Origin: Bacillota bacterium
Lineage (GTDB): Bacteria; Bacillota; Negativicutes; Sporomusales; CTSoil-080
Direction: 5' to 3'
DNA length: 64,000 nucleotides
Assembly (NCBI GenBank): GCA_017889725.1
Contig: JAGGAE010000015.1
Location: forward strand, 1-64,000
Part shown: positions 1 through 30,725 of the stretch, piece by piece
Position numbering within the stretch: the stretch's first letter is position 1
Layout: every line of letters starts with the position of its first letter
Translations under genes and position numbers: made by a program
Notes under the pieces: model-generated
Database searches by the model: none
Seen by the model: only the letters and a program-made list of their open reading frames with translations
What the model was told of the DNA's origin: nothing

Positions 1-99
1 TATTTGCCGGTTAAGCCGCTCCTGTTCACATTGTATCTCCACCGCTTCCGCCACAACATCCGGTGCCGTACCCAGCACATCAATCAGTGTAATCTCATT
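1..99 (-). CDS. sigK: RNA polymerase sporulation sigma factor SigK, 3' fragment (partial, runs off window)
   Basis: Manual minus-strand translation NEITLIDVLGTAPDVVAEAVEIQCEQERLNRQI aligns with B. subtilis SigK [33 protein letters not shown] (spoIIIC half). Confidence 0.82.
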
Positions 100-105
100 T
101 ACACT
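86..105. other. candidate attachment site, left end of skin-like element
   Basis: AGTGTAAATGAGATTACACT (minus strand): 7-bp perfect inverted repeat centred on AATGA. Confidence 0.5.
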
Positions 106-351
106 TACTAGTTATCTGTATTGACTCTGGCCAGTTAGCTCTGGGCAACTGAGAAACTGCAATAGCGTTCGTCCAAAAGGGGTGGTTTGAGTACTTACAG
201 GCAATAAAACCTGAAATAACCGCATTAGCCACTTTCTGGATTTTATTAGGTCTGAAAGAAAATTTTGGAAACTTTTGCAGGAATGATCTCTTTAATAAAA
301 AATATTAACCAGTATTGTATTTGATTTAAGGATTATTGGAGGGAATAAATA

Positions 352-1020
352 ATGAAAAAGAAAATTTATGATTACGCTCTGTCCAAAGGTGCTAGTCTAG
401 TTGGATTTGCTGGAGTAGAAGCTATGGATGATGCGCCTGATGGCTTTCGTCCCCTTGACATAATGCCAGCCGCCAAAGGAATTATTGTATTGGCTAAAAT
501 AATACCTAAGGGAATCATGACCTCGGGTAACGCCGTAATATATACTCTTCACGTTGAACACCTAATGACCCAACTTGATACACTAGCCTATAACATCGCT
601 TTATTCATCGAACAGAACGGAAGTCTGGCTATGCCCATTCCAGCGGATGATCCTTACTTTCACTGGGAAATTGACCGTCAACACGGAATGGGGTTATTAT
701 CCCACCGCCACGCCGCGGTAAAAGCGGGCCTTGGCTCACTGGGAAAAAATGCGCTGCTAATTACTCCTCAATATGGCAATAGGGTTCAATTAGTAACCGT
801 CCTCACTGACATTCCGTTTGATTCGCCACAAGAAATCGTGGGCCTTTGCCCAACTGCTTGCCACCGTTGTGTTGATGTTTGCCCATCCAAAGCACAGACC
901 GGAAGTTACTTTATTGAGCAGAAACCTTGCCGTTCTCATATGTTTACTAAATCCGACAGAGGTCACTCGCTTTACCGCTGCTGGCAATGTCGAGCCATAT
1001 GTCCAGCAGGACAAAGCTAG
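352..1020 (+). CDS. 4Fe-4S protein, epoxyqueuosine reductase (QueG)-like
   Basis: LCPTACHRCVDVCPSKA and CWQCRAICP cysteine motifs; RBS GGAGGG upstream. Confidence 0.7.
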   Translation: MKKKIYDYALSKGASLVGFAGVEAMDDAPDGFRPLDIMPAAKGIIVLAKIIPKGIMTSGNAVIYTLHVEHLMTQLDTLAYNIALFIEQNGSLAMPIPADDPYFHWEIDRQHGMGLLSHRHAAVKAGLGSLGKNALLITPQYGNRVQLVTVLTDIPFDSPQEIVGLCPTACHRCVDVCPSKAQTGSYFIEQKPCRSHMFTKSDRGHSLYRCWQCRAICPAGQS

Positions 1021-1035
1021 CTGCATTTAATAAGA

Positions 1036-1068
1036 AACAGATTTGCTGTTATCTCCTATAACAGCAAA
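1036..1068 (+). terminator. rho-independent terminator-like hairpin
   Basis: GATTTGCTGTTAT…ATAACAGCAAATC just after the 352-1020 CDS. Confidence 0.6.
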
Positions 1069-1367
1069 TCCACTTTTCAATCTTACTAAAACAGTAGGAT
1101 TCTCTCCTTTTACTATTTTTCTAAAAAAAGCGAAATGCAAAAAGGGAGTGTAAAATTAGTGAATAATTTTCTTTCGAAACTTACACACTTTAATTCTACA
1201 CTCCCTATATATTTTTTAATTGCCGTAAAATTAGTTCAGACTATCCTTAGTTCCTTACTTACACTAGACAAAAGTAAAGAGTTCAATACTATACTTTTCG
1301 TTCACTGCGAAACTAGTCGAGAGCTTCTTTTTCTAATAGCCATTCAGCGCCATAGCTAAAAGTTTCA

Positions 1368-2042
1368 CTAAAGGTCCAATAGGGTTCCGGCATTTTGGGG
1401 AAGATTTATCGTTGCCGTCTCCGCATCTTTTAGCACGAGTGCTGGAGCTGCTGCAGAAGTGGTTGCGGAAGTTACCCAAGAAGTATTTCCGGCAACATCA
1501 CAAGAGCAGTCGGTGCATATTTGCATGTGCCAAATCTTCCATTCTCCCTCTTCATTAATAAAATCTACGCCGTATTTTTCCCACATCCACTGGGCGCTCG
1601 GATAACCATCGCTACCAATTCCGGTAACTTGTCCGGGCGTATACCACATTGCTTTTGCAGTCTGACCATCACCAGCGATTTCGATAATCGGTGTTGTAAG
1701 GCAATGCATAATTAATGTACCTGCTCCCAAAGCATCTTCGGCAACGGAAGGATAATTTACAAGCAACCGAGCAAGATCGGCTTTTTGGTTGGCTAGATGG
1801 ATTGTACCATACGCATTATAAATGGAATCATAACCTACCCAATAACCTACGTTCATTGCGAAACTGGCATTAGGCGCTTTTTTTGTCCATATGTTTTCTA
1901 GTTCCTCAAAATTTAGTCCAAGTCCATGGTAATACGCATGTTTACTCATTACATTCTGAACTTCTTGGATATCTAACGCTCTCTGAATTTTTTCCTCTAG
2001 AGTCAATTCTCTCACCGTTGTTTTTGCCTTACTCATTTTCAT
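1368..2042 (-). CDS. SnoaL/NTF2-like nuclear transport factor 2 family protein
   Basis: ORF; overall pattern (HAYYHGLG…W…MWYTPG…W…Y.VDF…WKIWHMQ) of SnoaL-like proteins. Confidence 0.5.
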   Translation of the reverse strand: MKMSKAKTTVRELTLEEKIQRALDIQEVQNVMSKHAYYHGLGLNFEELENIWTKKAPNASFAMNVGYWVGYDSIYNAYGTIHLANQKADLARLLVNYPSVAEDALGAGTLIMHCLTTPIIEIAGDGQTAKAMWYTPGQVTGIGSDGYPSAQWMWEKYGVDFINEEGEWKIWHMQICTDCSCDVAGNTSWVTSATTSAAAPALVLKDAETATINLPQNAGTLLDL

Positions 2043-2332
2043 TTCTCCCCTTTTTTCTTTTTTTAATACAGTACTTTAAATGGTTCTTCACCAAAGTTAA
2101 ATACACACTTCATAAACCGCCTCCCCCCGCGAAGCCTTCCATCATCGGACAGCCTTCGCATGTATTATTCACTCCATATAAAAAGGCCTGGCAATATATA
2201 GCCAAGCCATAGAGTGTCATGCAATAGCATCCCAGCAAGTAAAACTGATTTTTACTATACCCAATTTACCATGTAAGATTCCATTAAAAGTGACATATTT
2301 GTGACCCGTAAATCGCAGTTATGTGTAACAGA

Positions 2333-2393
2333 AAAGATCTTTATACTAAAAGACACTCTTTTAAATAGAGTGTCTTTTAGTATAAAGATCTTT
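2333..2393. repeat. 27-bp perfect inverted repeat, 7-nt loop
   Basis: AAAGATCTTTATACTAAAAGACACTCT-TTTAAAT-AGAGTGTCTTTTAGTATAAAGATCTTT. Confidence 0.9.
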
Positions 2394-2461
2394 AGCAAAT
2401 CGCCTTTACATTTTTACGAATACAAAATATAGTATATATAAAAATTACGAATAATAGGTGG

Positions 2462-2926
2462 TTGTTTATGAATATCAATGATTTGAAACTAATCAAGCAG
2501 CTTATGGTGCAAGCTCGTTCAACCTGGGCGGAATTAGGCACATTATTAGGTTTATCTGCACCTGCCGCAGCAGATAGAGTTCATAAATTAGAGGAAGCAG
2601 GAGTAATAAAAGGCTACTCAGCATTAATTGATCCAGATGCAATTGGATGCGGACTAGCCGCATTAATATCCATAATAATTGAGAACCCTGAACAACAAAT
2701 ACATCTGCTAAAGCAAATCAATGAATTACCTGAAGTTCTAGAGTGTCACCATGTAGCAGGAGATGTTGATTACATTCTTAAAGTCCGTTGCGCTAGTACA
2801 AAAGACTTAGAAAGACTGATCAGTAAAGAGATTAAATCTTTTCCAGGTATACAAACAAAGACCATGGTGATTCTTTCAACACTAAAAGAAACTCCCATAC
2901 TCCCATTAAACTTAGAAAAGGAATGA
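2462..2926 (+). CDS. Lrp/AsnC family transcriptional regulator
   Basis: N-terminal HTH (AELGTLLGLSAPAAADRVHKLEEAGVIKGY) and RAM-like domain. Confidence 0.88.
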   Translation: MFMNINDLKLIKQLMVQARSTWAELGTLLGLSAPAAADRVHKLEEAGVIKGYSALIDPDAIGCGLAALISIIIENPEQQIHLLKQINELPEVLECHHVAGDVDYILKVRCASTKDLERLISKEIKSFPGIQTKTMVILSTLKETPILPLNLEKE

Positions 2927-2930
2927 AAAA

Positions 2931-3536
2931 ATGTTGTTGTGGATTAAAGGGATAGTTTTAGGCTTTTCTATTGCCGCGCCGGTAGGGCCTATAGGCGTAC
3001 TTTGCATCCGGCGTACGTTAGCCAACGGGATGAAAACTGGCTTTATTTCAGGCTTAGGTGCAGCAACGGCTGACGCAATATATGGTTTTATCGCCGCACT
3101 TGGTCTTTCGGTTATATCTACTTTTTTATTAGATTATCAATTCTACCTACGCCTTATTGGAGGAGGTTTTCTACTCTATTTAGGTTATACGACATGTAAA
3201 TCTATGCCGGCCGAAGAAGCTGCAAGTGTAAATGGGAAAGGACTTCTCGGGGCTTATACATCTACCTTATTTCTGACTATTACTAATCCGATGACCATAA
3301 TGTCGTTTGCCGCTGTATTTGCAGGATTAGGAATGGGCCCTATAAGTGAGAAAGATATATCGTCATTCTTTTTAGTTTTCGGTGTTTTTATTGGTTCCAT
3401 GCTTTGGTGGTTAATCTTAAGTGGAACGGTTAATGTACTGCGTAATACGTTGGAACAAAAACAGTTAAAATGGGTTAACAGGCTCTCAGGGCTTATAATT
3501 GCTTGCTTTGGTATATTTAGTCTAGTTTCGGTTTAA
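2931..3536 (+). CDS. LysE family amino-acid exporter
   Basis: GFSIAAPVGPIGVLCIRRTL motif; multiple TM segments; next to Lrp-type regulator. Confidence 0.88.
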   Translation: MLLWIKGIVLGFSIAAPVGPIGVLCIRRTLANGMKTGFISGLGAATADAIYGFIAALGLSVISTFLLDYQFYLRLIGGGFLLYLGYTTCKSMPAEEAASVNGKGLLGAYTSTLFLTITNPMTIMSFAAVFAGLGMGPISEKDISSFFLVFGVFIGSMLWWLILSGTVNVLRNTLEQKQLKWVNRLSGLIIACFGIFSLVSV

Positions 3537-3636
3537 AGCCTAACATTTTATTAGCTCTTTTTCTATTGCACAAATCCATGTAAAAAAAACTTAGGCAAAC
3601 TGCAACCCATAACCCCCCCCCTGTTTGTGCTACCCC

Positions 3637-3966
3637 TTAATGTGACGTACCGAACAAATTCAATCCCACGGTTCCGATTATAATAAGTAGAATACAAACT
3701 ACCTTTGAAATGGATAAGGTTTCTTTAAAAAAGAATACTCCAATAGTTGTAATTAGCACAATTCCTATTCCCGACCAAATAGCATAAGCTATTCCTATTT
3801 CAATCTTTTTTAAAGCTAGTGACAGTACCGATAAACTTAAAATATAAAAAAGCAACATTACTATTGAATACTTAATGCTCGTCATTCCCTCAGACAATTT
3901 CATCGAAATAGTACCACAAACTTCAAAAATAATTGCCAATCCAAGATAAACCCAATTCATAAGCAC
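3637..3966 (-). CDS. SMR (EmrE/SugE-type) small multidrug resistance transporter
   Basis: 109 aa, 4 TM; GLAIIFEVCGTISMKLSEG and AYAIWSGIG motifs. Confidence 0.88.
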   Translation of the reverse strand: MLMNWVYLGLAIIFEVCGTISMKLSEGMTSIKYSIVMLLFYILSLSVLSLALKKIEIGIAYAIWSGIGIVLITTIGVFFFKETLSISKVVCILLIIIGTVGLNLFGTSH

Positions 3967-4137
3967 ACCTCATAATTTTTCTCTTTAATACGATCTTAAA
4001 CGCTCTGATAGATACATTTCTGATAACTTCTCTAATCCAAAATCCAAAAATAAATACTAATGATTTTCTTTTCCCTGCAAAATTACAAACCCAGGAATAA
4101 CGGGCCTTTCCCGCTTCCTGGGTTTTATTTTAATCCG

Positions 4138-4986
4138 TTAAGAAATTGCGTTTGGTGTAAGTCCTGTCAATATCTTCTTACATATCAACTGCAGCTGCGT
4201 CATTCCCAATGCGTCGCATGGCAAAAATTCTACCAAACTTGCACCTACAAAACGAAATTTATCGTTCATATTGTCCAGAACTTCAGTTAATGTTTTCATA
4301 GTAATTCCTTCTTTACTGGGCCAAGCACTGAATTTAAAAGCAGTCTCCGTTAATACATCCGTATCAATATGAACATAGACATGTGTATAGCCCTTAGATG
4401 AAATACTATGAAACACTGTCTCCGGTGATAATTCCAATACTTCCGGCGTTATGATTTTTATTCCGGCCATTTTGATATATTCGGCTTCCGGAAGATCCAA
4501 ATCCCTGGTTCCCGCCAAAATAATCTGGTCAGGCTTTAATTTAGATGGCAGCATATGGTCGATTTCAGAATCACCTTCTCCTAATAACTGCCGGATTGGC
4601 ATACCTGTGAATAATTTGCTTGGTGAACTTTCCGGAGAATTTATATCTCCATGCGCATCGAGCCACACCACCACCAAATCGCCATTGAAACGCTGATTAA
4701 GATAACCTATGGGTGCTATACTCACACTGCAATTTCCACCTATGGTGAAAATCGTTTCGGGATTATAATCGGTAAGCGTTTCGACAGCTGCCCTCAACTG
4801 ATTTACTATCGATTTGTAGCCTATAATATTTTTCTCTAATTCTAGTTCTTCATTCAAATCTACTGGCACCCTCTGCATCAAGAGCTTGTTTTCCAGTGCT
4901 TCAGCTAGTTGCATTGCCCCATCATAAACCTGACGCTTAGGCCCGCCTTGCCACTGGGGAAAAACCAAATTGAGATGTTTGCACAT
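4138..4986 (-). CDS. arginase/agmatinase family protein
   Basis: GGNCSVSIAP, WLDAHGD, VHIDTDVL metal-binding motifs. Confidence 0.82.
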   Translation of the reverse strand: MCKHLNLVFPQWQGGPKRQVYDGAMQLAEALENKLLMQRVPVDLNEELELEKNIIGYKSIVNQLRAAVETLTDYNPETIFTIGGNCSVSIAPIGYLNQRFNGDLVVVWLDAHGDINSPESSPSKLFTGMPIRQLLGEGDSEIDHMLPSKLKPDQIILAGTRDLDLPEAEYIKMAGIKIITPEVLELSPETVFHSISSKGYTHVYVHIDTDVLTETAFKFSAWPSKEGITMKTLTEVLDNMNDKFRFVGASLVEFLPCDALGMTQLQLICKKILTGLTPNAIS

Positions 4987-5214
4987 CTACTTCCACTCCC
5001 TTAACCCATTTCTATTCGAAAATAATTCCACAAAAGAGTATACTATCCTTCCTTCGTCAATAAAGTAACGTTCGCTCAAGCACACGAGATACGGGCAATG
5101 TATTCTCGAGAAACTTAAAAGGGCCGTACAGCGCCATCTGTTCCATATTTTGCGTGTAACTTCTACAAATACTTTTCCAAATCTTTCACCTACAAAAAGA
5201 AACTGGATGAAATT

Positions 5215-5278
5215 TATCTATACCCGAAAGTAAAAGAAGCTAGATTTTTCTAGCTTCTTTTACTTTCGGGTATAGATA
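5215..5278. repeat. 30-bp perfect inverted repeat, TTTT loop
   Basis: TATCTATACCCGAAAGTAAAAGAAGCTAGA-TTTT-TCTAGCTTCTTTTACTTTCGGGTATAGATA. Confidence 0.9.
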
Positions 5279-5359
5279 CACAATGTATTAAATCTATATG
5301 CGTCTAATTGTTATATTTCTGAATATGGAAATGTATCTAAATACCAAAACAAGTCTTCT

Positions 5360-5578
5360 CTAATACATATCCTTTCTCAATCTATTATCAAAATGATAGT
5401 CTTTAAAACAAGTATCTACGCAATTATAAAACTCAACCATTTTTTCGAAAGAATAAGACTGAATTACCTCATTCATCAGGGGAATAAAATGATTCGGAAG
5501 TTTATTGCATTTTTTTAATTCGTGTAAGAGTATATTTCCAGTGTACCCGTACCGACACCCCTGACAAGAAAATTTCGG
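5360..5578 (-). pseudogene. possible C-terminal gene remnant (no start codon)
   Basis: Open minus frame PKFSCQGCRYGYTGNILLHELKKCNKLPNHFIPLMNEVIQSYSFEKMVEFYNCVDTCFKDYHFDNRLRKDMY* with CxxC, no ATG/RBS, preceded by in-frame stop. Confidence 0.35.
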
Positions 5579-5760
5579 CTAAACCACGTCTAGGCGAACA
5601 TAAAACACACATATAAAACTTACTAGAAACCAGCGAGCCCTTTGAAATCAGGCTATCAACGTCACTGACTCAACATGCCATATCATAGGCAGACGATACC
5701 GATATGCAGAATTAGTCGTTTTACGTAAAAGTTCGCCCCCTAAAAGTAAGGGGGCGCTAA

Positions 5761-6801
5761 TTAAATGCTCAACTTCGCGCAAGCCCACTTAGCGATCTCT
5801 CTTACTTTTTCGTGTTCATCATCACAAGCGATTTTCAGATATTTTTCGTATTTAGATTCGAAATTATTCGCCATGGCAATAATAGAATTAGCTTTCCATT
5901 TCCAAAGATTTCTTTCCCTGATATACCAAAATTTTGGCTGGATGATTTCTCTAAAAATTTTATCGTCCATATTAAATACATTTTCTAAAGACATATACTC
6001 AGCTATTTTGTTTACATCCGGAAAATCTTCTTCCTCACTTAAACAATTTTTATTCATGGGGCAAGCATCTTGGCAGGCGTCGCAACCATAAATACAGCCG
6101 CCTATTTTTTCTCTTAACTCCTCCGGCGGCAAATCATCGGCAATAGAGGTTAAGTAAGTTATACACTTTAGTGCATTCACAGTATAAGGCTTGACTAAAG
6201 CTTTGGTTCTACAGGCATCTTGGCATTTAGTGCAAGCGTTAGGGCAGGGCTTTAGAGAAGGAGTATCTATTAATTCCATCTCTTTATCCACCAGCCAGCT
6301 ATCCATAACTACCCAAGAACCACTGTTTGTATAGAACAAGCTATTTTTCCTAATGACCCCAAGTCCCGCTTTCTGCGCCGCCCACTTGTAGGCAGTTGTT
6401 CCAAAACCTAAATCATCTCTAAAAGCCTTTAGCCCTAAGGTATTTAAATAATTATCAAACAAAATCCTATTATTATACTCTTCAGTATTCTTTGCCTTCC
6501 TGACATCAAACCAATAATGCTTGCCAATCTGGCTGCTAATATTATCAGGAAGTTTGTATTGGCCATACCGACTAACGCAAATAATGATTGATTTGGCCCA
6601 TTCATGGGATTCCTGAGGTACGGCATATGGGTAGAGCAGTTTTTTATAGATAGATTTCAATTCCGGAAAAGGTTCGACATTTTCATTAAGCCTTTCAGCA
6701 TAACTTTTCATTTCCTCTACTTTTATTATGCCACAGGCTTCATAACCTAATTCCAAAGCTTTCTTTTTAATTAATTCTTCAATATTATTAACATTTATCA
6801 T
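5761..6801 (-). CDS. QueG-like 4Fe-4S double-cluster protein (epoxyqueuosine reductase family)
   Basis: CPNACTKCQDACRTKAL and GCDACQDACPMNK motifs; start set at MINVNN behind GGAGGCAG. Confidence 0.8.
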   Translation of the reverse strand: MINVNNIEELIKKKALELGYEACGIIKVEEMKSYAERLNENVEPFPELKSIYKKLLYPYAVPQESHEWAKSIIICVSRYGQYKLPDNISSQIGKHYWFDVRKAKNTEEYNNRILFDNYLNTLGLKAFRDDLGFGTTAYKWAAQKAGLGVIRKNSLFYTNSGSWVVMDSWLVDKEMELIDTPSLKPCPNACTKCQDACRTKALVKPYTVNALKCITYLTSIADDLPPEELREKIGGCIYGCDACQDACPMNKNCLSEEEDFPDVNKIAEYMSLENVFNMDDKIFREIIQPKFWYIRERNLWKWKANSIIAMANNFESKYEKYLKIACDDEHEKVREIAKWACAKLSI

Positions 6802-7051
6802 AAATAATTTTTCTGCCTCCACATTAATAGCATATTTGCCCAAAATTTATTAAACAATATCATATCAGTGTTTTATATTCGCTATAGTATTTCGGTGAGG
6901 GATACTATAAAGCTAACGATGGTGAGTACTAATTATAAAATCTTCAACCGCAAAAGAAAACTCCTCTACGAGATATAGATCTGTCTCATATTAGGAGGAT
7001 TTTTGACGGAAGGTTATAGCCTGGATTCCAGACCAGACAGCATATTTTGAG

Positions 7052-7964
7052 TCAGCGGTCAGCTTGGAATACTAATGTAGTACCAACATTGTTTGGTATA
7101 AATGCTTTAGGCATTGCTTGAGCAATTTGGTGGATAGCAGACCAACCAGTGCAGTGACCAGGCATCTCCACCTGTCAAATGAAAACCACCTAAGACCGCA
7201 TAAACTTGTTCGCAATCAGTTAGTGTTTGGGCATGACGAATGGTATTGATAATTCCAGAATGGCAGCATCCCGTAATTATAACTAAACCCTGTCCTCGAA
7301 GATTTATAATAATACATTGATCATCTAATATTACTGGGTCATTTTCCCACTTGCCATTGCGTTTCGTATAATGGACAGGAAAACCTGTTTCAAAGTTAGT
7401 AGTTCTTGCAATCTCCCCAGAAACTAAGATCATATTATCTGCTAAGAGAGTTGCATCCGTTTTTATAATAGGTGTAATATTTTTTTGTTGGGAAGCAGAT
7501 AATTTTGGCGCTGAAACACTTACTTCGTATCCACCGGGCATCATTACCTTTCTTTCTAAAAAAGTATCTGGGTGGGCTATCAGCTGTATCGGCGGGTGCT
7601 TTATTTCTTCAAGAAGAGTAGGTAGTCCCATGGTATGATCCACATGACCATGACTAAGTATAATGGCTTGCAAGTCATTAATATCAATTTCCATTGTATG
7701 CATATTATGTAATATTCCACTAGGGCTAATGCCTGTGTCTAGTAATACTGTTTCAAGTCTATTTTCGTATTTTACCTGAATTAGGGCTGAAAAACCGTGT
7801 TCTGCTACAAGGGGAGAAAATCCATCTTTGGCAATAAGCGGACAACGTGAACTATTAAAGCGATGTACTATTTTATTCCCAGTCATAAATGCGTCTATTG
7901 TATTGTCCATGATTATTGTTACTTTTACTTCATCAACTTCTAATAATGGAATATTTTTTATCAT
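7052..7964 (-). pseudogene. MBL-fold metallo-hydrolase with internal frame-shifting deletion
   Basis: Intact MBL motifs (LSHGHVDHTMGL, TGCCHSGI, GGFHLTGG); C-terminal MPGHCTGWSAIHQIAQAMPKAFIPNNVGTTLVFQADR* resumes immediately in the +1 frame; annotated frame stops at 7107. Confidence 0.75.
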
Positions 7965-8110
7965 ATAAATTTTCCACCTCTCCTTGAGTTTGGTAAATGA
8001 TTTAAGAATAAAGAACCCTGCAAAAAATCCTTACAAACACATACCTATTGTTACGAATTTTAAGTGCAGTAATTATGCATTAGCTCGTACCTCCTCCATT
8101 ATAAGATTAT

Positions 8111-8138
8111 AAGACTATAAGTAAATACTTATAGTCTT
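8111..8138. promoter_or_regulatory. perfect palindrome, candidate ArsR-family operator
   Basis: AAGACTATAAGTA-AA-TACTTATAGTCTT; CTTATAGTC motif recurs at the arsR promoter (~8537-8546). Confidence 0.4.
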
Positions 8139-8150
8139 GCCGCGCTTTTA

Positions 8151-8501
8151 CTATTGACACTTGTTATTATAAGAACATTGGTCACAAGAGAAATTATGCT
8201 GGCATTTCTCAAAAGCTTTCCTAAACAATTCGTTTATGTCTTTTCTGTATTCTGTCAAAACTTCAGAATTAATTGTATAGAAGACTCTAAAGCCTCTTCG
8301 GTTCTCTTCAAGAATACCAATGTTCTTTAAAACCTTTATGTGTTGAGATGCGGCAGGTTGAGAGATACCCAGTTGTAGGGCTACATCAGAAACGCAAAAA
8401 GTTTCATTAATATTTGATGCAAGCATCTTTATTATTTTTAGTCGTTTCTCATCACCGAGAGATTTAAGGATGACAGCCATGTTTTTGAGATGATCTTTCA
8501 T
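8151..8501 (-). CDS. ArsR family winged-helix regulator
   Basis: ILKSLGDEKRLKIIKMLA…FCVSDVALQLGISQPAASQHIKVLKNIGIL; Cys-rich C-terminus; TTGACA-N17-TATAAG promoter upstream. Confidence 0.88.
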   Translation of the reverse strand: MKDHLKNMAVILKSLGDEKRLKIIKMLASNINETFCVSDVALQLGISQPAASQHIKVLKNIGILEENRRGFRVFYTINSEVLTEYRKDINELFRKAFEKCQHNFSCDQCSYNNKCQ

Positions 8502-8580
8502 TAATATACCTCTCATATATAAGTATATAATTATTATCTTATAGTCATGCCCCTTTTGTCAAGTTACGTATTTCTTGCCA

Positions 8581-8857
8581 GGAACAGCGTTTGAAAAGTT
8601 CCGGTGTACCAACCGGTTTGTATATAATTCAACCGTAGCATCATCCACAGCTTTCCACAGCAATCTTTCGTCTGTTTAGGCAACTCTCTGCCACCTTCAG
8701 CGAGCTTCAGACAATTACTGTATTACATCAGTTCTCACCTGTTGCAGTTTAAGGAGAGCGTTTCAAGACGTTACCCTATCATTCCACTCTTCACCATATC
8801 AATTCTTCAAGGTTTTTACCTTGAGCCTAGGCCTTTTCAGCTAGGAACGTTTCGCAC
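8581..8857 (-). ncRNA. probable group II intron 5' (domain I) fragment, no IEP
   Basis: Minus strand begins GTGCGAAACG and continues with intron domain I-like sequence (…GGTAAAAACCTTGAAGAATTGATA…GATAGGGTAACGTCTTGAAACGCTCTCC…GTGGCAGAGAGTTGCCTAAACAGACGAAAG…GTGGAAAGCTGTGGATGATGC…); no reverse transcriptase ORF. Confidence 0.5.
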
Positions 8858-8899
8858 AGTTATTTAAATCCACATGCAGAATTGTTCGCATCATTTCCC

Positions 8900-8946
8900 C
8901 TGCCGTATAATTAGAACATTTGTTCGATGTCATGATTATACGGCAG
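8900..8946. repeat. 12-bp inverted repeat enclosing a LexA/DinR-like box
   Basis: CTGCCGTATAAT…ATTATACGGCAG with GAACATTTGTTC in the spacer. Confidence 0.5.
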
Positions 8947-9132
8947 ATCCAGATGAAATTCAAGCAAAAACAACACGTATGTCTTTATGGAAAACATTGT
9001 AAATTACAATCTACTCAGCACAAAAAATAAAGCCAACACCCCTTTGTCATTAACCCTTGAACCTATTCCCTTGTTTTAGCTTTTATATGCCCCTTCTCTC
9101 GAAAATCAAGTTCAACTAAAAACCAGACGAAA

Positions 9133-9573
9133 TTAAAACTTGGCAATAACTTGATTCAATTCTTCTAATGCATAAGGACTGATTTTTAAGGTGTAATCTT
9201 TAATACCAGTACCGCCATAAACAAATGAGTGCTCAAAAAGGTTTTTATCTAAAATATGGGGAAGTGGAATTCCAACTAAAGGAACATTGCCTATGGTATA
9301 GCCCATATTCTCAACCTCTTTTGGATTTGCCAGTTTAGCTTCTTGGCAGTTTAGTATTTCAGCTACTTGTTTAAAATCAACCCTGCCACGACTTCCGGAA
9401 ACAATGATTACAAAAAAACCAATATCCGTTTTGACAATCAATGTAGGTGCAGTTTGCCCAATGTCTATATTAAAGTACTCAGCTCCTTCTTGAGCTGAGC
9501 GGAGAAGGTTTTTATGATGAATTAATTTATGGGGATATTTGCTTTTATCCAAAATTGATTTTACATATTCCAT
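9133..9573 (-). CDS. YbaK/EbsC family aminoacyl-tRNA deacylase-like protein
   Basis: APTLIVKTDIGFFVIIVSGSRGRVDFKQVAEIL and GTGIKDYTLKI patterns. Confidence 0.75.
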   Translation of the reverse strand: MEYVKSILDKSKYPHKLIHHKNLLRSAQEGAEYFNIDIGQTAPTLIVKTDIGFFVIIVSGSRGRVDFKQVAEILNCQEAKLANPKEVENMGYTIGNVPLVGIPLPHILDKNLFEHSFVYGGTGIKDYTLKISPYALEELNQVIAKF

Positions 9574-9638
9574 TATAAATCATCCTTTTTCTCTGCAGCA
9601 TACTTTTTCGGGAGTTATATCTAATGAAGCTTTCGACC

Positions 9639-10796
9639 TTATACACTCAGTTTCCTATCAAAAAAATTTTTGCGATTTACTATAATTGCTATAAGTGATG
9701 CTACACCTCCAAGTAAAACCAATCCAGTCCAGCCATATAGCCCACCTAGTAGACTTCCCAGTTTTGTACCGACTGAGCCGCCAAGAAAATAGCTAGTCAT
9801 GAAAGCTGTATTTAACCTGCTCCTGGCATTTTCATTTAAGGAAAATACTCTAAGTTGATTTCCGATAATGCTATGTCGAGCAGAGATATCAAGTAACACC
9901 ATTGATATCGGCAAAATAAGTAAGCTATTTACTGAATAATACATGATGATGAAACCTACAAGTGAGATTATACCGCCTACCGCAACAACAAATCCCGGAG
10001 TATACGTATCGGCAAAACGCCCAACATACGGAGAGACAATAATTCCGGCTATACCGCTTAACCCTAATAAGCCAACCTCATGACTAGTAAGATAAAATGG
10101 AGGAAGACTGGTCAAATAGGCTACTATTCCCCATAAAGCGCTATATGCTCCAAAAATAACAAAACCGCTTAAGCAAGAACGCCTCAATTCTTTTTCGACA
10201 AAAAATAATTCAAACGTAGATTTGATTAAAGTCTTATAACTTAGCTGATTATTACCCTTATTGGATGGAAACTTAAAATAAACAACCGAAATAATAAATA
10301 AATCTATGAACGCGGCTAAAACAAAAACAAATCTCCAGCCAAATATTCCACCAATATAACCTGAAAATAGACGGGCAAATAAAATTCCCGTTACTAAACC
10401 TGAAAGTAATATACCAACTGCGTTCCCTCTTTTTTCTTTACTAACATAAGAGGAAGCAGCGGGAACTATTATTTGGGCCCCAATGGATGTTAGACCAATA
10501 ACGAAACTTGATATTTCTAAAAAAATAAAAGAATTACATAGGGAAGCCACTAGCGATGATAAAAGATTGACGAAAAGTAAACTCTGCAATAATTTTTTCC
10601 TATTGAGTTTATCTCCTAGAGGAACTAAAAATAATAATCCGGTGGCATACGATAGTTGAACTATTGTAGGTATATTTCCTATCTCATTATGCGTAACACC
10701 AATAGAATCAGCCAAAAGCATTAATATTGGCTGGCTGTAATAGATATTGGCAACACAAAATGCACATATAACAGACATTAAATACACAAGACTCAT
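9639..10796 (-). CDS. MFS transporter
   Basis: 12 TM pattern, VPLGDKLNRKKLLQ motif. Confidence 0.85.
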   Translation of the reverse strand: MSLVYLMSVICAFCVANIYYSQPILMLLADSIGVTHNEIGNIPTIVQLSYATGLLFLVPLGDKLNRKKLLQSLLFVNLLSSLVASLCNSFIFLEISSFVIGLTSIGAQIIVPAASSYVSKEKRGNAVGILLSGLVTGILFARLFSGYIGGIFGWRFVFVLAAFIDLFIISVVYFKFPSNKGNNQLSYKTLIKSTFELFFVEKELRRSCLSGFVIFGAYSALWGIVAYLTSLPPFYLTSHEVGLLGLSGIAGIIVSPYVGRFADTYTPGFVVAVGGIISLVGFIIMYYSVNSLLILPISMVLLDISARHSIIGNQLRVFSLNENARSRLNTAFMTSYFLGGSVGTKLGSLLGGLYGWTGLVLLGGVASLIAIIVNRKNFFDRKLSV

Positions 10797-11016
10797 ATTC
10801 CTAACACTACCTTTCGAGTACGATTCAAAAATTGCGGATTTTTTCCTCTCACAACTATTTGAGCAACTGCAAATATTCTTTAGTAATAATATACCAACGC
10901 TACTTACCGCCTAAAAACAACTGTGGTAGTGATAGTGTATAATAGTACTACAGGTGTAACAAGATAAGCATATATCCTAGGAATTTTACTCCTAGTTTGG
11001 TAATGAGGAGCGTATA

Positions 11017-11850
11017 ATGATAAATTATGACGATATGCGAAGAAAACAGCTGGGTAATTTTCTTAAAATAAGACGAGCCAAACTTTCCCCGGAACAGGCA
11101 GGTTTTTGCCAAGGAAACCGTCGACGGACCCCTGGTTTGAGACGAGATGAAGTTTCCCAATTAATCGGTGTTAGCGTAGACTGGTATACATGGCTGGAAC
11201 AAGGCCGCAACATTCATGTATCATCCAATGTTTTAGAAAACTTGGCAGCACTCTTTCAATTAAACGCAAGTGAACGTAAGCATTTATTCTTATTAGCACA
11301 TCAACAATTTCCTTTAGATATTCCGGAAAACCAAAAATTTATAAACCGCACACTGCAGCACTTCCTTGATCTTCAAGGAAGTAGTCCAGCCTATGTAACT
11401 AATTTAAAGTGGGATATTATCGCTTGGAATCAAGCTGCCTGTGAAGTTTTTGGCAATTATGGAACTATGTCGATGCGGGATAGAAATACAGTATGGAGAG
11501 CTTTTACTTCTCCTTATATGAAACAATTACTGGATGATTGGGTAGGTCATGCGCAAAAACGATTAGCTCAATTTCGCGCTAGTTACAGTCACTTGTACAA
11601 TGATCCATGGTGGAATGCCATGGTAGAGGATCTTACACAAATAAGTGATGATTTCAAAAATTGGTGGCCACGTTATGATATCCTGGACTCACCTGAGGGA
11701 ACAAAATTACTTCATCATCCAACGGCCGGGGAGCTGCGATTAAGACATCTTTCTTTTCGTTTATGTGACGCGCCCAATTTAATAGCTACAGTCCATATAC
11801 CGATGGATGAAAATACCGCTAATAAAATAGCAAACTTATTAAATAGTTAG
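11017..11850 (+). CDS. XRE-type HTH regulator with MmyB-like ligand-binding domain
   Basis: GNFLKIRRAKLSPEQAG…RTPGLRRDEVSQLIGVSVDWYTWLEQGR; divergent from MFS gene. Confidence 0.88.
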   Translation: MINYDDMRRKQLGNFLKIRRAKLSPEQAGFCQGNRRRTPGLRRDEVSQLIGVSVDWYTWLEQGRNIHVSSNVLENLAALFQLNASERKHLFLLAHQQFPLDIPENQKFINRTLQHFLDLQGSSPAYVTNLKWDIIAWNQAACEVFGNYGTMSMRDRNTVWRAFTSPYMKQLLDDWVGHAQKRLAQFRASYSHLYNDPWWNAMVEDLTQISDDFKNWWPRYDILDSPEGTKLLHHPTAGELRLRHLSFRLCDAPNLIATVHIPMDENTANKIANLLNS

Positions 11851-11978
11851 TATATAGCGATTAAAAGTTCCTCATTAATGAATTAACTAAAAGCCGTCCA
11901 TAACGAATGGACGGCTTTGATAGTTAATTACAGCACCTCCTCAAATGGAAAAACGCCGGCACATTGAGTGACAACAGT

Positions 11979-12191
11979 CTATTTCTCCGGCGCCTCTGTC
12001 TGGCAACCTATTAACGCATTGAGCTGCCGCTGCTCGTCCGGTGTGAAAGAATTCCAAATTGCCCAAAATGCCTGGTGCCACTCGTCAATCACCTTTTGTT
12101 TCTCTTCTCTGGTCATAGGCGGCGGCGCTACCACCTGTACAAGACTCTTGCCGTCATTACAGTAATAGGTCGCCGCAGGCTCTTGTTCCAT
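11979..12191 (-). CDS. hypothetical small acidic protein
   Basis: 70-aa ORF beside the recombinase, opposite strand. Confidence 0.5.
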   Translation of the reverse strand: MEQEPAATYYCNDGKSLVQVVAPPPMTREEKQKVIDEWHQAFWAIWNSFTPDEQRQLNALIGCQTEAPEK

Positions 12192-12397
12192 ATACCCACC
12201 CCTAAAACTATTTCTATGCCGAACTCCGTCCTATCCAGCCCTAACCCATCAACATTTTTCCGAACCTATTAGCCGTCGTAAAATTTCTATACTAATCTTC
12301 CTGCAAACTTATAAAATGAATACTACAAAGTGTGCTAAAGAAGGGGAAAAATCATCTGCCCCAAAATGCCCCCGGGGCTTAAAAGTAAGGTGATACC

Positions 12398-13969
12398 ATG
12401 GCAAAACCTCTGCCGCCGGAACTGGAACCGGCCTGTTTTTACCTTCGCAAATCCAGAGAAGACCAGGAAGCGGAAGCCCGCGGCGAAGGGGAAACCCTTG
12501 CCAAACATCGCAAAGCCCTTTATAAACTGGCAAACGAATACGGCATCGCCATTACTACTGTTTTTGAAGAAATTGTCTCCGGTGAAAGCATCCTCAACCG
12601 TCCGGCTATGCTGTCCCTCCTAAAGGAAATCGAAAACGGTAAATGGCGTTCGGTATGGTGTATGGACGTCGACCGGTTGGGTCGCGGCGGAATGCAAGAC
12701 CAGGGACTGCTGCTTGAGACCTTAAAAAGCGCCAGGACCAAGATTGTCACACCCCGCAAAATTTATGACTTAAGCGACGAATTTGACGAAGAATATACCG
12801 AATTTGAAGCCTTCATGGCCCGTAAAGAATTAAAACTCATTACCCGTAGACTCCAGAGCGGCAGAAGACGCTCGGTGGAAGAAGGCAATTATCTTGGCAC
12901 CCGCCCCCCCTACGGCTACCTCATACATAAAGACGCAGGCGAACGGACACTCATTCTCCACCCCGAGCAGGCGGACACCGTCAAACTTATCTTTTCCCTC
13001 TATACCCATAGCGACCCCAAGCTGCGCATGGGCAGTGGAAAAATAGCGGCTGAACTCAACCGGCTGGGCTGCACCACCTATACCGGTAAGCCATGGGACG
13101 CCTCTACCGTACTATTTATACTAAAAAACGAAATATACCTTGGCCGGGTGCAATGGCGAAAGAAAGAAGAAAAGAAAAGCCGCCTCTCCGGCCATAAAAA
13201 AATCGTCCGCACCCGTCCCCGCACCGAGTGGATCGATGTCCCGGGTAAACACCCGCCTTTAGTTACCCCCGCCCAATTCACCCAAGCCCAAGAAATACTT
13301 CAAACCAGGTACCATAACCCCTGCCGGGCGGACGGTCGCCTCACCAATCCCCTGTCAGGCCTAATTCGCTGCGAAAATTGCGGTTCCGCCATGATTTTCC
13401 GCCCCTACCGTCACCAAAAATACCCCCACCTCATCTGCTGTACTCCCCACTGTCCTACTAAAAGCAGCCGCTTTGCCTACATTGAATCTGCCCTTCTTAG
13501 CGGCCTCGACGCCTGGCTGAGTCAATACCATGCCCAATTTTCCAATTACCCCGCGCCAAACAGCAACTTTAGCAGCGTAACCCTTGACGAACATATCCTC
13601 CGCAGCCTGAACAAAACCATAAAAGAGGCGGCCTTACAAAAAAATTGCCTGCACGATTTCCTCGAAAAAGGCATTTACGACACGGCCACCTATCTCGACC
13701 GCACAGCGAAGCTTACCCAGCGTATCGCCGTAGCCGAAAAAGAAATTCTCGCCGCCGAAAACCGGCTCCAATACGAAAAAGCCCATGCAAACACACTAAA
13801 CCTCCTCCCTAAGTTGACAAAACTGCTTGGCATCTACCCAAAAACCACCGATGCCTCTTTGAAAAACCAAATGCTAAAGACCGTGCTCCGGTGCGCCCTG
13901 TACCGTAAAGACCCCACCCAGCACGGACCGGAGTTTTCTCTAAAGCTATTCCCAAAGTTGCCGCACTAA
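12398..13969 (+). CDS. large serine recombinase (SpoIVCA-like)
   Basis: Resolvase N-terminus (FYLRKSREDQEAEARGEGETLAKHR…DVDRLGRGG), recombinase domain (GYLIHKDAGERTLILHPEQADTVKLIFSLY), zinc ribbon (CENCGSAM…CCTPHC), coiled coil; convergent with sigK 5' half. Confidence 0.93.
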   Translation: MAKPLPPELEPACFYLRKSREDQEAEARGEGETLAKHRKALYKLANEYGIAITTVFEEIVSGESILNRPAMLSLLKEIENGKWRSVWCMDVDRLGRGGMQDQGLLLETLKSARTKIVTPRKIYDLSDEFDEEYTEFEAFMARKELKLITRRLQSGRRRSVEEGNYLGTRPPYGYLIHKDAGERTLILHPEQADTVKLIFSLYTHSDPKLRMGSGKIAAELNRLGCTTYTGKPWDASTVLFILKNEIYLGRVQWRKKEEKKSRLSGHKKIVRTRPRTEWIDVPGKHPPLVTPAQFTQAQEILQTRYHNPCRADGRLTNPLSGLIRCENCGSAMIFRPYRHQKYPHLICCTPHCPTKSSRFAYIESALLSGLDAWLSQYHAQFSNYPAPNSNFSSVTLDEHILRSLNKTIKEAALQKNCLHDFLEKGIYDTATYLDRTAKLTQRIAVAEKEILAAENRLQYEKAHANTLNLLPKLTKLLGIYPKTTDASLKNQMLKTVLRCALYRKDPTQHGPEFSLKLFPKLPH

Positions 13970-14022
13970 GAAATAGTAAAAAAGGGAGGGAAGAAAACGC
14001 CCGCATTTCTTTCCCCCCTTTT

Positions 14023-14412
14023 CTATTTGCACCTATGCGTACTGCGAAAGTGCATGAGGATTTCATTTTCGATGCAGCGGGCTGCATAGGTCGCCAGTCT
14101 GGTTTTTTTGCCGGAATCAAATGTGTTGATAGCTTTGATCAGGCCAATGGTTCCAATCGAAATAAGGTCATCCACTTCTTCACCGCTATTATCAAACTTT
14201 TTGACAATGTGGGCAACCAAGCGGAGATTGCGTTCAATCAGCACGTTTTTAGCCGTTTCGTCGCCCTCTTTCAGGCGTGCCAGATAAAGCTGCTCCTCTT
14301 TTTCCGACAGTGGCAAAGGAAATGTGTTATTCGTCAAATATGCCACAAATAAAGAAAGTCCCGTGACAACCGAAGTAGCCAGGGCCAATAAAGCGGACAC
14401 CAAACCTTTCAC
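14023..14412 (-). CDS. sigK: sporulation sigma factor SigK, 5' fragment interrupted by element
   Basis: FVAYLTNNTFPLPLSEKEEQLYLARLKEGDETAKNVLIERNLRLVAHIVKKFDNSGEEVDDLISIGTIGLIKAINTFDSGKKTRLATYAARCIENEILMHFRS then stop; start likely GTG at 14412 or 14400. Confidence 0.92.
   Translation of the reverse strand: MKGLVSALLALATSVVTGLSLFVAYLTNNTFPLPLSEKEEQLYLARLKEGDETAKNVLIERNLRLVAHIVKKFDNSGEEVDDLISIGTIGLIKAINTFDSGKKTRLATYAARCIENEILMHFRSTHRCK
14051..14076. other. candidate attachment site, right end of skin-like element
   Basis: TGCATCGAAAATGAAATCCTCATGCA (minus strand), dyad centred on AATG|A. Confidence 0.45.
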
Positions 14413-14433
14413 CCCCCGTTCAAACTGTGCTTT

Positions 14434-14441
14434 ATTGTATG
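14434..14441 (-). promoter_or_regulatory. sigmaE-type -10 element of sigK
   Basis: CATACAAT on the minus strand, 22 nt upstream of the GTG at 14412. Confidence 0.6.
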
Positions 14442-14559
14442 GGGGTGACACAAGTAACGTGCCTGTAAATATATTCTAAATTTTCTTTGCCCCAAAGCGG
14501 GCATCTGCTATGGGCAAACACGCAAAAATATTGTATAATCGCACCAGGAGAGTGATAAA

Positions 14560-29692: not shown

Positions 29693-30725
29693 TGGATTTA
29701 CTCCTTCCAATAAATTCATCCTGCGTCTTTTGCCAGATATCACTGAATAATTGTTCCCTGACATTTCCCAGTGTTTTATGTCCCCAAAACTGACAAGCAT
29801 GCACATTGCCCAATGGATCGACATTCGCCATTTTCTCGCCGGCCGAACAGCCGCCATGCATTGTCAGCAAAGCTTCAATTTCAGGTACCCGCTCAGGCTG
29901 TTTGCGTTCAAAGTACTGCAAAATATATATTCCGTCAGCATGATTATCCGTGGTTAGTATTTCTACTTCCACACCCCGTTTGTTAAAATCCAGCGTTTTA
30001 TCAATTAGCAACTCAATAATTTGACGTTTCTCTTCTGGGCTGGTATCCAGTTCAGCCATATTCTTTCCCCGCCCGGCGTAAACCAGGTGGTACATACAAA
30101 ACCTTGGTATTTTTTCCTGTTCTACAATATCTAGTATGGCCGGTAAGTCGTGCTGATTTTGTTTATTGACAGTAAACCGTATTCCCGTCTTATTCCCCGC
30201 CACCATCGAATTGCGAATGCCTTCCATTGCTGCCTGAAAGCTGCCTTTTTGCCCTCGGAATCGATCATGAACCTTTTCGGTTCCATCTAAACTCACGCCT
30301 ACATATTGGAACCCGGTCGCTTTTATCTGTTGAGCCATGCCCGGTGTTATGAGCGTGCCATTCGTGGAAAGTACCGGCCGTATCCCCTTTGCACACGCAT
30401 AAGCGCCGAGTTCGAATACATCGGGCCGCATTAAAGGCTCCCCACCGGAAAACAGCAGTACCGGCACATGCATCCGTGCTAGATTATCAATAAAAGCTTT
30501 TGCTTCCTGGGTTGTCAATTCACCGTTATACACGCGGTCTTCCGCTTCAATATAGCAGTGCTGACAGGTAAGATTGCAGCGATTGGTAATATTCCAAACA
30601 ACAATCGGCGTGGCATCAGACGAAAACTGCAGCATATTCGGCGGTAGCGTCCGCGAATTCCTCCCATACTTAACAAGATCAGAAACTGTGGCCGTTCCGC
30701 AAAGTAATTTAGTGCATCCTATCAC
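29658..30725 (-). CDS. radical SAM protein, AhbC-like (12,18-didecarboxysiroheme deacetylase), C-terminally truncated
   Basis: MIGCTKLLCGTATVSDLVKYGR N-terminus, CNLTCQHCYIEA; ends 18 aa after SDIW without SPASM CxxC motif. Confidence 0.7.
   Translation of the reverse strand: MIGCTKLLCGTATVSDLVKYGRNSRTLPPNMLQFSSDATPIVVWNITNRCNLTCQHCYIEAEDRVYNGELTTQEAKAFIDNLARMHVPVLLFSGGEPLMRPDVFELGAYACAKGIRPVLSTNGTLITPGMAQQIKATGFQYVGVSLDGTEKVHDRFRGQKGSFQAAMEGIRNSMVAGNKTGIRFTVNKQNQHDLPAILDIVEQEKIPRFCMYHLVYAGRGKNMAELDTSPEEKRQIIELLIDKTLDFNKRGVEVEILTTDNHADGIYILQYFERKQPERVPEIEALLTMHGGCSAGEKMANVDPLGNVHACQFWGHKTLGNVREQLFSDIWQKTQDEFIGRSKSNDYILEYYAGL

Follow-up and report, generated by a model that had tools for sequence, protein, structure and literature searches.

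A clean 62-nt loss in an MBL-fold hydrolase gene of a Sporomusales draft genome, very probably a local assembly error

In the MBL fold the HCTG segment holds a late metal-ligand histidine. The closest described proteins to the gene discussed here are the metal-dependent hydrolases of beta-lactamase superfamily II (MBL fold) represented by PDB 2p4z, 7dck and 3h3e, with which it has the motifs SHGHVDHT, GCCHSG, GGFHL and GHCTG in common. The nearest solved structure is 2p4z, which the intact relative from Sporomusa acidovorans matches at E = 2e-24. Metagenome assemblies are known to suffer from local errors, through which wrong protein-coding sequences reach the databases (PMC7111523).

The window, by which we mean the whole stretch of 64,000 nt that was analysed, lies on contig C12 of a draft assembly (G000) of 1.79 Mb in 108 contigs that is 65% complete, and its fragmentation and completeness indicate that it is probably metagenome-derived. 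Among the genomes used for comparison, G002 is from the same genus and G318 is from another family of the class. The features discussed are collected in Table 1.

Table 1. Position, strand and basis of assignment of the window features discussed in the text
Feature	Position	Strand	Basis
MBL-fold hydrolase ORF, 285 aa	7107..7964	(-)	ORF list, Pfam Lactamase_B 42 bits, alignment
C-terminal part of the same MBL gene in another frame, MPGHCTGW...VFQADR then stop, HCTG motif included	7052..7165	(-)	tblastn piece and translation
MBL junction, 62 nt of the relatives' sequence absent	7164..7168	(-)	alignments; exact base ambiguous by one position
ArsR/SmtB-type regulator, upstream of the MBL gene	8151..8516	(-)	profile match and neighbourhood comparison
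QueG-like 4Fe-4S protein, downstream of the MBL gene	5761..6843	(-)	profile match and neighbourhood comparison
sigK C-terminal half, reaching the contig end	102..1	(-)	sequence comparison
Large serine recombinase of the sigK element	12398-13969	(+)	sequence comparison
sigK N-terminal half	14023-14451	(-)	sequence comparison
Second lesion of the same class, a NirJ1/AhbC-like radical SAM gene short of 145 nt at its 3' end and with them of its stop codon	29705..29718	(-)	alignment; truncated profile match

The whole broken MBL gene spans 7964 to 7052 on the minus strand. Its longer ORF has the HxHxDH motif of the fold as SHGHVDHT, followed by GCCHSG and GGFHLTGG, and its Lactamase_B score is above the cut-off of 22.7 bits. 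The 5' part is in frame up to GGFHLTGG, after which about 18 out-of-frame residues (DAWSLHWLVCYPPNCSSNA) are read before the stop at 7107, the end of the ORF as read being VLGGFHLTGGDAWSLHWLVCYPPNCSSNA. GHCTG is not in the same frame as the rest of the ORF and as assembled is found only in the other frame, which is open right after the junction and from 7165 to 7052 reads MPGHCTGWSAIHQIAQAMPKAFIPNNVGTTLVFQADR and then a stop. The initial annotation had proposed an internal loss that shifts the frame, and translation and alignments confirm this, with the tail resuming at once in another frame. If the protein were truly made as written, the HCTG segment would be lost and the enzyme would be inactive.

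The same annotation had put the loss at 60-70 nt, and the normal spacing in the family at about 20 residues between GGFHL.GG and P.HCTG. The estimate of the loss was right: the gap is 62 nt in the alignment to G002, S. acidovorans and G011, and again 62 nt in the alignment to G002 alone, while 21 residues separate HLTGG from MPGHCTG in all four close relatives (G002, S. acidovorans, G011 and G318). Residues are present at this point also in 2p4z and 7dck, the closest relatives of solved structure. Alignment to intact homologs had been suggested as a check, and it shows that the segment is not naturally absent in the relatives found. None of the genomes examined yielded a shortened homolog that stays in frame, and a natural short variant of the family is ruled out, since all close in-frame relatives found have the segment.

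The displaced tail is 91% identical to residues 291-325 of the G002 ortholog (tblastn, E = 2e-15), a match that by sequence comparison is well beyond chance. Of the 35 codons after the junction, 18 are the same as in G002, 14 differ silently and 3 differ non-silently; for the head of the gene the figures are 92, 98 and 76. With 14 silent changes against 3 non-silent ones, the tail shows a pattern of purifying selection that acted up to very recent times or is acting still. No further decay was seen when stops and short indels were looked for within the gene.

To put this lesion in context we used 601 kb of G000, which is about a third of it, and 1.44 Mb of G002. ORFs were called in both and each set was searched against the other genome by tblastn, places being counted at 60% identity or more. 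This two-way search gave 140 distinct gene places in G000, of which 123 are clean, 8 extend past the end of a stretch, 1 is only partial and 8 (about 6%) are split by a frame-breaking hole. The 8 split places all have one form, a clean frame-shifting loss with both flanks conserved, with lengths of 47, 62, 74, 74, 101, 118, 121 and 160 nt. The lesion in the hydrogenase gene is accompanied by a second gap of 14 nt. A lone short indel (a frameshift of 1-10 nt) breaks none of the 140 places, and stops within matches are seen at gene ends and in one doubtful ORF of 109 aa but nowhere else. Losses that keep the frame also occur in G000: genes with 77-81% identity are short of 38 and 40 residues, and a protein with 59% identity is short of 25. 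Their number is roughly that expected were lengths random with respect to frame, and those in well-conserved genes fit a process blind to reading frame. The reverse test gave 2 split cases among 144 places in G002. The protein concerned has additional internal segments in the first case, and in the second the split is close to an N-terminus; neither is a clean equivalent of the G000 lesions, so that by the same test this class of lesion is absent from the comparison genome.

Five of the 8 lesions are on contig C8, and the contig of the window has the MBL lesion and one or two more. Positions 1-17000 of C8 (about 17 kb) have six internal losses, those in rpsI, argH, argC and cdaA among them, and this contig is especially error-rich. 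No repeats or long overlaps are evident where the flanks of the lesions join, and each junction word occurs just once in the 601 kb. Deletion by slippage between direct repeats was considered and set aside on these grounds. Once contigs that are N throughout are put aside there are no runs of N in the 601 kb, so any short unassembled stretches would be unmarked.

It is the identity of the genes hit that is the strongest evidence for assembly error. The holes recur irrespective of gene function, and the split genes are those for 30S protein S9 (rpsI), ArgH, ArgC, CdaA, a nickel-dependent hydrogenase large subunit, a TolC-family protein, an AmmeMemoRadiSam-B-like protein and the MBL protein. S9 and ArgH each have a single match in all of G000, and in both cases that match is split. 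The only near match to CdaA is also split, there being elsewhere just a weak partial match of 31%. A living cell with its sole S9 gene broken in such a manner is very unlikely.

The window itself holds a second lesion and perhaps a third. The 145-nt loss in the NirJ1/AhbC-like gene is located at 29711/29712, and as the stop codon is gone the ORF runs on into the following NirJ2-like gene, the start of which is intact. The N-terminal half of sigK ends about 22 codons sooner than in G002 (window 14000-14030), and the word AAATGAGAT, which is common to both sigK halves in G002, is absent from the N-terminal half in the window, where it is present only on the side of the C-terminal half (86-102). 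Possibly a third lesion of the same class has affected the 3' end of this half, at about 14025.

A skin-like element of about 13.9 kb splits sigK (window 1-14451), and the ArsR, MBL and QueG-like genes are all within it; in G002 the same arrangement takes up about 5 kb. In S. acidovorans, G011, G318 and Clostridium drakei the MBL gene likewise comes after an ArsR-type regulator, and in G318 a QueG-like protein with 88% identity is placed between the two. S. acidovorans, G011 and C. drakei have a gene for a CGGC-domain protein after the MBL gene; G000 has none. These genes could plausibly be guessed to form a regulator-controlled accessory cassette for detoxification or redox functions, and we found nothing useful in the literature on an ArsR/MBL/CGGC cassette. 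The MBL homolog of C. drakei SL1 is out of frame by 1 nt at an A7 run (L018 3835-3862), which may be a sequencing error, a real frameshift or slippage at the A-run. Programmed frameshifting was considered for this homolog only, as in the window gene it could not bring back the 20 lost residues.

We conclude that the 62 nt are very probably missing through a local error in assembly of the draft genome rather than by mutation in the bacterium, because the same small holes recur in about one in fifteen of the genes compared in G000, its only rpsI and argH among them. The main alternative, which we consider unlikely, is a true and very recent deletion of 62 nt that has made the accessory MBL gene a fresh pseudogene. 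The gene is indeed of a kind that can be lost in nature, with close relatives in 5 of 381 genomes of the class, it is inside the element that interrupts sigK, and its C. drakei homolog loses the frame, by 1 nt, in the corresponding region. However rpsI, argH and cdaA, each present as a sole copy, have the same class of lesion, the MBL gene has no other decay, and the pattern in its tail is that of purifying selection. Of the mixed decay expected of true pseudogenes, lone short frameshifts and internal stops were not found in clear genes among the 140 places, and relaxed selection after the lesion was not found in the MBL tail, although a very fresh pseudogene would look alike. It is thus only in part that the description of a broken gene stands: the 62-nt loss and the frame shift are present in the sequence, but a break in the organism is unsupported, given the recurrence in the assembly of such lesions in sole rpsI, argH and cdaA copies and at 29711/29712.

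Metagenome-derived genomes can mix strains, and the deletion could be present in only some cells, with that variant chosen or merged by the assembler, but this would need to hold alike at 8 or more genes, some of them core, and is highly improbable. It is even harder to credit that the shorter MBL form works, whether the family naturally includes such a variant or a programmed frame change takes place. The C-terminal frame is open directly past the junction, but the 21 residues are kept in all close in-frame relatives and the 20 missing residues could not be restored by a change of frame. We would give just as little weight to the lesions being real in the DNA, in a lineage with dozens of clean deletions of 50-160 nt that are tolerated or compensated even in sole copies of rpsI, argH and cdaA.

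With assembly error as the preferred explanation, the assembler or a later step would have joined two flanks over a short unassembled stretch without placing Ns, and the gene is most likely intact in the organism, where it would encode an MBL-fold metal-dependent hydrolase of about 325 residues. With a frame-breaking hole in so many of the genes compared, any call of gene loss or of a pseudogene made from G000 is unreliable. Where reads are lacking, assembly holes can be told from decay at little cost by a two-way count of clean losses against a genome of the same genus, with a check of core genes present in a single copy.

With regard to the known systems, the window copy differs from the MBL-fold hydrolases in being without 20-21 residues before GHCTG and in the change of frame, whereas intact relatives have neither defect. 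The lesions resemble the local assembly errors of metagenome-assembled genomes in that errors in draft contigs lead to incorrect or incomplete protein-coding genes, but the relevant sections of PMC7111523 define such errors by missing read support and describe no size class like 47-160 nt, while the G000 lesions are known from sequence comparison. As in bacterial pseudogenes, a reading frame is interrupted and remains recognisable. Unlike them, however, the G000 lesions among the 140 genes are clean losses of 47-160 nt only, and sole-copy core genes are among those hit.
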